Source: Clostridia bacterium (GTDB taxonomy: Bacteria > Bacillota > Clostridia > UBA1381). From it: a stretch of 64,000 nt of DNA. A model generated the notes under the pieces. The model had not been told where the DNA came from, ran no database searches, and saw only the letters and a program-made list of their open reading frames with translations. Of the stretch, positions 20,872 through 21,365 are shown piece after piece (positions within the stretch are counted from its first letter, which is position 1; every line of letters begins with the position of its first letter). The position numbers and the translations under genes are program-made. The stretch covers positions 1 to 64,000 of the forward strand of contig JAFSXU010000068.1 of NCBI GenBank assembly GCA_017443895.1. Reading direction: 5' to 3'.

Positions 20872-21278
20872 TGGTGCCAGTGGTGGGACTTGAACCTGTC
20901 ATGTGAGGTTTTATACTTTCGCAAACGCAAAAAACAAAAAAACCAAGCAATTTTAGCTTGGTTTTTCAGTTTTTGGTGCCGGTGGTGGGACTTGAACCTG
21001 CCATGTGAGGTTTTATACTTTCGCAAACGCAAAAAACAAAAAAACCAAGCAATTTTAGCTTGGTTTTTCAGTTTTGGTGCCGGTGGTGGGACTTGAACCT
21101 GTCATGTGAGGTTTTATATTTTCGCAAACGCAAAAAACAAAAAAACCAAGCAATTTCAGCTTGGTTTTTCAGTTTTTGGTGCCGGTGGTGGGACTTGAAC
21201 CTGTCATATGAGGTTTTATACTTTCGCAAACGCACAAAACAAAAAAACCAAGCAATTTCAGCTTGGTTTTTCAGTTTT
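20872..21278 (-). repeat. Tandem array of four tRNA-Leu 3'-end copies with terminator cores
   Basis: On the plus strand, TGGTGCC plus GGTGGTGGGACTTGAACC (the complement of the last 25 bases of tRNA-Leu, CCA included) recurs at 20872, 20974, 21075 and 21177. These precede the true tRNA end at 21279, a period of 101-102 bases. The copy at 20872 has one mismatch. Each interval carries a hairpin CCAAGC/GCTTGG with a U-run and a 35-base spacer. The last copy is followed by a different terminator (AACGCT/AGCGTT). Reading frames across the array are artefacts of the repeats. Confidence 0.95.
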
Positions 21279-21365
21279 TGGTGCCGGTGGTGGGACTTGA
21301 ACCCACACGGATTTAACTCCAACGGATTTTGAGTCCGTCGCGTCTGCCAATTCCACCACACCGAC
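21279..21365 (-). tRNA. tRNA-Leu (anticodon CAA)
   Basis: An 87-base class II tRNA with a long variable arm. The acceptor is GTCGGTG/CACCGGC, and the anticodon stem ACGGA/TCCGT encloses CTCAAAA (anticodon CAA, reads TTG). The T-arm is GTGGG-TTCAAGT-CCCAC and CCA is encoded. A TTGACT element lies upstream on the minus strand. It is the first unit of the downstream 3'-end array. Confidence 0.95.

Follow-up and report, generated by a model that had tools for sequence, protein, structure and literature searches.

The window, by which we mean the whole stretch of 64,000 nucleotides analysed here, carries an intact gene for tRNA-Leu(CAA) and, behind it, four tandem copies of the gene's own 3′ end, an arrangement that the first-pass annotation of this DNA had proposed and that ARAGORN and Tandem Repeats Finder have now confirmed (Table 1). 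The latter program delineates the repeat at 20870-21303, with a period of 102, 4.3 copies, a score of 812 and 96% matches. Four units of 101-102 bp each lie 3′ of the gene. They consist of a terminator hairpin, a spacer and a tRNA end. The recurrence, at intervals of 101-102, of a block going from the T-arm to CCA had been rightly seen at first reading, but this block, then given as 25 bases long, measures 24 (GTTCAAGTCCCACCACCGGCACCA, from tRNA position G53 to CCA). From the tRNA outward, successive blocks follow one another in steps of 102, 102, 101 and 102; three of the four copies match the tRNA exactly, and the outermost shows one change. An in-phase recurrence of this kind, four times over, is not chance. 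The cores, 77-78 nt long, each begin with a CCAAGC/GCTTGG hairpin and its T run and continue with a spacer ending in CAG. Both parts had been described for each unit, with the spacer put at 35 nt; it is in fact about 40 nt long. Outside the last copy comes a different terminator, AACGCT/AGCGTT, again as first described. It is presumed to be the original terminator of tRNA-Leu(CAA). Over the array, Rfam at its gathering threshold recognizes the tRNA only, and the RtT RNA family has no match. No integrase (PF00589) was found on the window contig, in agreement with what the annotation had noted for the window.

Past the outer terminator of the array, the stretch at 20620-20871 displays repeated motifs (GTAATCGTTTTCTTTGCACCCC) that resemble transposon end repeats; similar blocks occur twice on contig C2 (L052, L054), one adjoining tRNA-Met end copies. 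Elsewhere in the window, a 9-bp tandem repeat (TACATCAAG, about five copies at 52077-52120) lies 0.7 kb upstream of tRNA-Leu(CAG), while Rfam matches a T-box leader (32799-33044) and a Gut-1 RNA (53376-53445), both unrelated to the array.

Table 1. Coordinates in the window of the two unit-bearing tRNA genes and of the parts of their units
Feature	Position	Strand	Basis or remark
tRNA-Leu(CAA), intact gene	21279..21365	-	ARAGORN; Rfam tRNA 51.7 bits
Copy 0, G53..CCA 24-base block within tRNA-Leu(CAA)	21279..21302	-	Sequence identity
Unit 1 core, CCAAGC hairpin terminator and spacer ending ATGACAG	21201..21278	-	
Copy 1 of tRNA-Leu(CAA) 3′ end, 24/24	21177..21200	-	
Unit 2 core	21099..21176	-	
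Copy 2 of tRNA-Leu(CAA) 3′ end, 24/24	21075..21098	-	
Unit 3 core, 77 nt	20998..21074	-	
Copy 3 of tRNA-Leu(CAA) 3′ end, 24/24	20974..20997	-	
Unit 4 core	20896..20973	-	
Copy 4 (outermost) of tRNA-Leu(CAA) 3′ end, 23/24	20872..20895	-	
Distal terminator AACGCT/AGCGTT	20831..20871	-	Similar sequence in L052, L054; outside last copies in G018
tRNA-Leu(CAG), second unit-bearing tRNA of the window	52805..52891	+	ARAGORN; 24-mer-to-copy span 52868-52991
Core of the single Leu(CAG) unit, with homologous CCAAGC hairpin and spacer	52892..52967	+	76%, E 1.4e-7
Copy of tRNA-Leu(CAG) 3′ end, 24/24 to own tRNA	52968..52991	+	
Outer terminator CGTCGGAGTGAGC..GCTCGCTCCG of Leu(CAG) unit	52992..53030	+	Type directly 3′ of CCA at unit-free tRNAs

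Units at other tRNA genes and in other genomes

The genome from which the window comes (G000) is a 99.5% complete draft of 2.72 Mb, in 77 contigs. When the DNA behind its tRNA genes was scanned, over 2.5 kb at most and over less at contig ends, the layout turned up, besides Leu(CAA), once at each of Leu(CAG), Leu(TAG), Leu(TAA) and Thr(GGT). Every unit ends in the 24-mer of the local tRNA, and the gap to the first copy is 70-81 at all these loci. The copies are thus related to tRNA 3′ ends elsewhere in the genome. A search for the core within the genome, as proposed at first reading, recovered it at the CAG and TAG units too: these share the CCAAGC core with the CAA units despite their differing 24-mers, and convincing matches of the CAA core are located at tRNA ends only. 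At tRNA-Leu(AAG) the same hairpin is present without a copy of the tRNA end.

Other repeated sequences keep company with tRNA ends in these genomes. A dispersed element, very roughly 165-190 bp long and containing internal inverted repeats, begins with CGTCGGAGCAAGCT..AGCTTGCTCCG-TTTTTT-GCAAAAAATC and is found in the window at 52992-53180. Many tRNAs in the order have it starting at their CCA or immediately behind it (L093, L023, L030, L031, L041, L045, L049, L081, L501), and at Leu(CAA) of the related genome G018 a 164-bp version of it has tRNA-end copies on both flanks. On contig C2 of the window genome (about 61135-61470; L016/L096), two orphan tRNA-Met 3′-end copies are separated by 242 bp, which comprise inverted (13 bp) and direct (14 bp) pieces of the tRNA-Met anticodon arm.

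Among 95 genomes of the order, a pattern search matched nine, eight of which are real: the window genome and seven relatives. The ninth, G090, was set aside, its copies having failed the identity filter; it is probably an adjacent tRNA pair. The richest picture comes from G018, with ten unit loci (four Leu, two Gly, and Asn, Ser, Thr and Met), a four-unit array at Leu(TAG) and, at tRNA-Tyr, a longer-period version of the layout. In this genome a two-unit array (L163, G018:C110, about 27700) is preceded by a sequence that resembles tRNA-Ser(GGA), has an unusual 5′ half and is not called by ARAGORN, an intact Ser(GGA) gene being present elsewhere (L318). The array itself is not a fixed feature of all relatives, the same-genus tRNA-Leu(CAA) genes examined having none. 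It is scarcely credible that we are dealing with an assembly artefact of a draft, probably metagenome-derived, genome: several unit loci do lie near contig ends, as repeats would cause, and the draft is cut into 77 contigs, but the array sits inside a contig of 141 kb, its units differ from one another, and single units are present in several independent assemblies.

Outside the family, pattern matches at the level of the class were rejected, as they looked like normal tRNAs side by side. A scan of GTDB contigs, with a pattern that presets the gap at 47-96 so that insert size cannot be judged from it, gave, among the matches listed, sporadic and unrelated tRNA 3′-end copies in many phyla, several of them resembling degenerate whole tRNAs. 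In Oscillospiraceae SIG622 we observed arrays of tRNA-Glu 3′ ends with a common terminator (L232, L238); the copies in L232 have diverged from tRNA-Glu yet are alike among themselves. Viral contigs submitted to the pattern scan gave at least 120 listed stretches, none of which is a real layout, and carriage of the units by phages was rejected on this ground.

Borders, terminators and empty sites

How far the identity between a tRNA and its copy extends was followed in 24 pairs of the family, chosen so that the second copy was neither a whole tRNA nor a further array unit. The upper limit of identity falls 0-2 bases above G53 in all 24 pairs, and the lower limit 0-2 bases past CCA in 17 of them. 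The shared block is therefore G53..CCA, in line with the T-loop/junction class of integration sites. Between these blocks, the unit cores range from 66 to 81 nt across loci. Within four arrays the 24-mers are far better conserved than the cores (1 variable column of 96, against 45 of 296; Fisher p = 1.8e-5). Judged by duplex energy, a spacer also pairs more favourably with the 24-mer of its own locus than with foreign ones (p about 0.001). This modest signal is a suggestive one, because exact inverted matches of the 24-mer in the spacers are not above permutation (p = 0.22).

Such conservation raises the question of a use to the cell. Read-through RNAs with a tRNA-like CCA end might serve as decoys or as signals for processing; alternatively, the copies might be sacrificial attachment sites that divert integrating elements from the tRNA. 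Conservation and own-locus pairing would both fit a present function. A decoy site would moreover agree with the position of an integrase or its remnant at Pro of G086 and at Leu(TAG) of the window genome, past the outermost copy rather than right after the tRNA. We nevertheless regard a present function as improbable: besides the exact matches that do not exceed permutation, Pro of G018 has retained the hairpin and part of the spacer without any copy, the copy at Pro of G082 is mutated, and the terminators should silence the copies.

The outer terminator, the one past the last copy, is at most loci unlike the unit's own, while in six of the 24 pairs the same terminator follows both copies (e.g. 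L114, L132, L133, L157, L162). In G018, the hairpin motif C(C/G)GCA(C/T) is present at 8 of 10 unit loci and at none of 33 unit-free tRNAs (p = 3e-7, an optimistic value since the motif was picked post hoc). The units at Leu(TAG) of this genome alternate in the order A-B-A-B, which we read as the sign of a probable block duplication. This bears on the proposal that one core had been inserted four times at tRNA-Leu(CAA): the near-identical units of the window, together with the A-B-A-B order, fit block duplication or unequal exchange, the latter also put forward at first reading as a way to raise copy number, at least as well as repeated insertion.

Might duplication account for everything? At a tRNA gene under heavy transcription, slippage or a switch of template could copy the 3′ end, the terminator and some filler, exchange then resizing the array, in the absence of any mobile element and perhaps as in the tyrT repeats of Escherichia coli. 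We consider plain tandem duplication somewhat unlikely. It would readily explain the six pairs with the same terminator after both copies, the block duplication in G018 and the sporadic tRNA-end copies listed in many phyla, several of them akin to degenerate whole tRNAs. It also accommodates the inverted tRNA pieces of 13 bases that are found both in the 242-bp Met insert and in an insert of genome G079 (for which a few other tRNAs give a match of the same length). It sits poorly, by contrast, with outer terminators that differ from those of the units at most loci, with a hairpin motif missing from the unit-free tRNAs of G018, with gaps that unbiased scans of two genomes confine to a narrow range, and with the sharp borders at G53 and CCA. 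It also fails to provide for the new sequence seen when empty and filled sites are compared.

Two such comparisons were made, both in the sister genus (g15) and both with inserts other than the window array. In G018 the empty form has an intact tRNA-Met directly followed by the terminator, and the filled form has a displaced tRNA-Met fragment, behind which a unit and a 24-mer lead to that same terminator region. The second comparison opposes two species, G076 and G079, at tRNA-Leu(TAG): the downstream flanks are identical in 419 of 504 columns, and in G079 about 183 bp, with no plausible gene and with 18 bases of the tRNA end repeated at their far end, come between CCA and this conserved flank. 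Since the tRNA-proximal upstream sides are less alike (446 of 853 columns), it is the tRNA and the downstream flank that speak for orthology here. The two sister-genus pairs show short segments entering exactly behind CCA and displacing the terminator outward; so insertion produced at least some units, and exchange would have enlarged the arrays. For the locus of the window itself, the same-genus genome G001 is without the array, but its downstream side is non-syntenic. The order of events proposed at first reading, with the tRNA end restored and the old terminator pushed outward, is supported by the sharp borders, the differing outer terminators and both pairs.

The two tRNA-Met forms compared in G018 lie on one and the same contig, where about 9.3 kb including an integrase gene separate the intact tRNA-Met from the displaced fragment (L149/L329, G018:C67:14-9540); by its look, this is an integration of the anticodon-loop type.

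Origin of the units and known systems

The account that we favour, while giving it no better than an even chance, is that a short gene-free segment was inserted precisely at the tRNA 3′ end and that copy number then grew, the agent being most likely site-specific recombination. The inserted segment would supply a terminator and a spacer. After insertion the bases from 53 to CCA would be present twice, leaving the tRNA whole and its former terminator displaced. Unequal exchange, block duplication or further insertion would then raise the number of units. The crossover would take place at the T-loop, as in integrative elements that target tRNAs, by means of an enzyme supplied in trans by elements since lost or decayed. 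From such elements the units would derive as minimal forms, reduced to end plus end. Sharp borders, identity to the own tRNA at many tRNAs, the empty and filled sites of the sister genus and a 24-mer conserved above the core make up the observed part of this account. That the window array itself arose by insertion, we infer, as we do the class of the recombinase, its supply in trans and the origin of the units as reduced elements.

A tyrosine recombinase is our best guess for the enzyme, and a guess it is because traces of integrases turn up at just two of about 23 loci. In the window genome, PF00589 identifies two intact recombinases, Xer-like on sequence inspection, together with a single decayed fragment of an integrase, located at Leu(TAG) about 210 bp past the outermost copy. 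At tRNA-Pro of G086 the C-terminus of an integrase comes directly beyond the outermost copy. At the other 21 loci no integrase was found next to the outermost copy, within a distal flank mostly of 3 kb and sometimes far shorter. These remnants link outer copies to attachment sites, at two loci only, and make the case for an integrase-type site, as first suggested, a circumstantial one. A further difficulty is that a single mobile element cannot simply hop by plain crossover from one tRNA to another, since each unit bears the 3′ end of its own tRNA and a chimeric tRNA would be created. Furthermore, integrases act poorly on circles as small as about 100 bp. As no intact element integrase was recognized, present-day mobility of the array in the window species is improbable.

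The identity of each unit to its own tRNA would be better explained than by crossover if an enzyme, casposase-like or akin to those that insert CRISPR spacers, made a fixed 24-bp target duplication at tRNA 3′ ends. It would simply duplicate 24 bases between fixed tRNA positions at any tRNA, and casposases do insert at tRNA 3′ ends (PMC6977970). We hold this to be very improbable. Cas1 has no match in the window genome or in G018, and an insertion of the Cas1 type was rejected on this count; a single one of the eight unit-bearing genomes, G075, has a match. The duplications made by the M. mazei casposon are 14 bp long (PMC6977970), the ends of the cores show no terminal inverted repeats by eye, and the G079 insert duplicates 18 bases, not 24.

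The same arrangement at many tRNA genes, in the window genome and in its relatives, points to an overlooked class of very small insertions aimed at tRNAs. It is tempting, if still tentative, to go one step further. There may exist widespread integrative mini-elements of about 100 bp, as yet uncatalogued, comprising a terminator and one recombination arm, that would insert at the T-loop of many tRNAs, be flanked by the host tRNA's own 24-base ends, stack into arrays and depend on integrases acting in trans. Although somewhat less probable to us than the general account above, such a class would, if real, count among the smallest known integrative elements. Mobile DNA has major docking sites in tRNA genes, and a leading catalogue of islands rejects candidates below 2 kb. 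Should it be common for short inserts without genes to enter tRNA 3′ ends and leave the tRNA intact, a size class of insertions targeted at tRNAs would have escaped notice, and the tyrT repeats of E. coli would have an origin that can be tested across species. A literature search on miniature tRNA-end elements or tyrT repeats returned nothing useful in the collection searched.

Several known systems invite comparison. Like the units, miniature inverted-repeat elements (MITEs) are very short and gene-free, with a related core at several sites of one genome. The units differ in that no terminal inverted repeats are seen by eye, that what is duplicated at the target is an entire, functional tRNA end, that they are confined to tRNA 3′ ends, and that no parent element was identified, the ends at the two loci with integrase remnants being unmatched. 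Casposons and CRISPR arrays share with them insertion at tRNA 3′ ends with target duplication, and the repeat-spacer-repeat look; here, however, Cas1 is missing from the window genome and from G018, 24 bp are duplicated rather than 14, and the cores are related to one another rather than unique. Integrative elements and islands that target tRNAs, as catalogued by Islander, likewise have a restored tRNA at one end and a displaced same-strand 3′ fragment at the other. Of the 3919 islands in Islander, 1836 use T-loop/junction sites (PMC4383910), and the identity block of all 24 pairs has its border there too, a likeness that concerns the border only. The units, in contrast, have neither integrase nor genes, and are about 100 bp long against at least 2 kb. 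Islander retains lengths of 2-200 kb and discards shorter candidates (PMC4383910), so that it would miss them.

The closest known arrangement is that of the E. coli tRNA-Tyr repeats (tyrT/tyrV, with rttR RNA and Tpr), where tandem repeats likewise stand behind a tRNA, each with the tRNA's own 3′ end. The tyrT repeats have been known for a long time. In K-12, about 19 bases of the tRNA end recur at a period of 178, with a different sequence past the outermost copy. The repeat there starts inside the T-loop, whereas the window array repeats 24 bases from G53 every 101-102 bp; the window array has no Rfam match to RtT, and the layout described here extends to many tRNA genes within a single genome.
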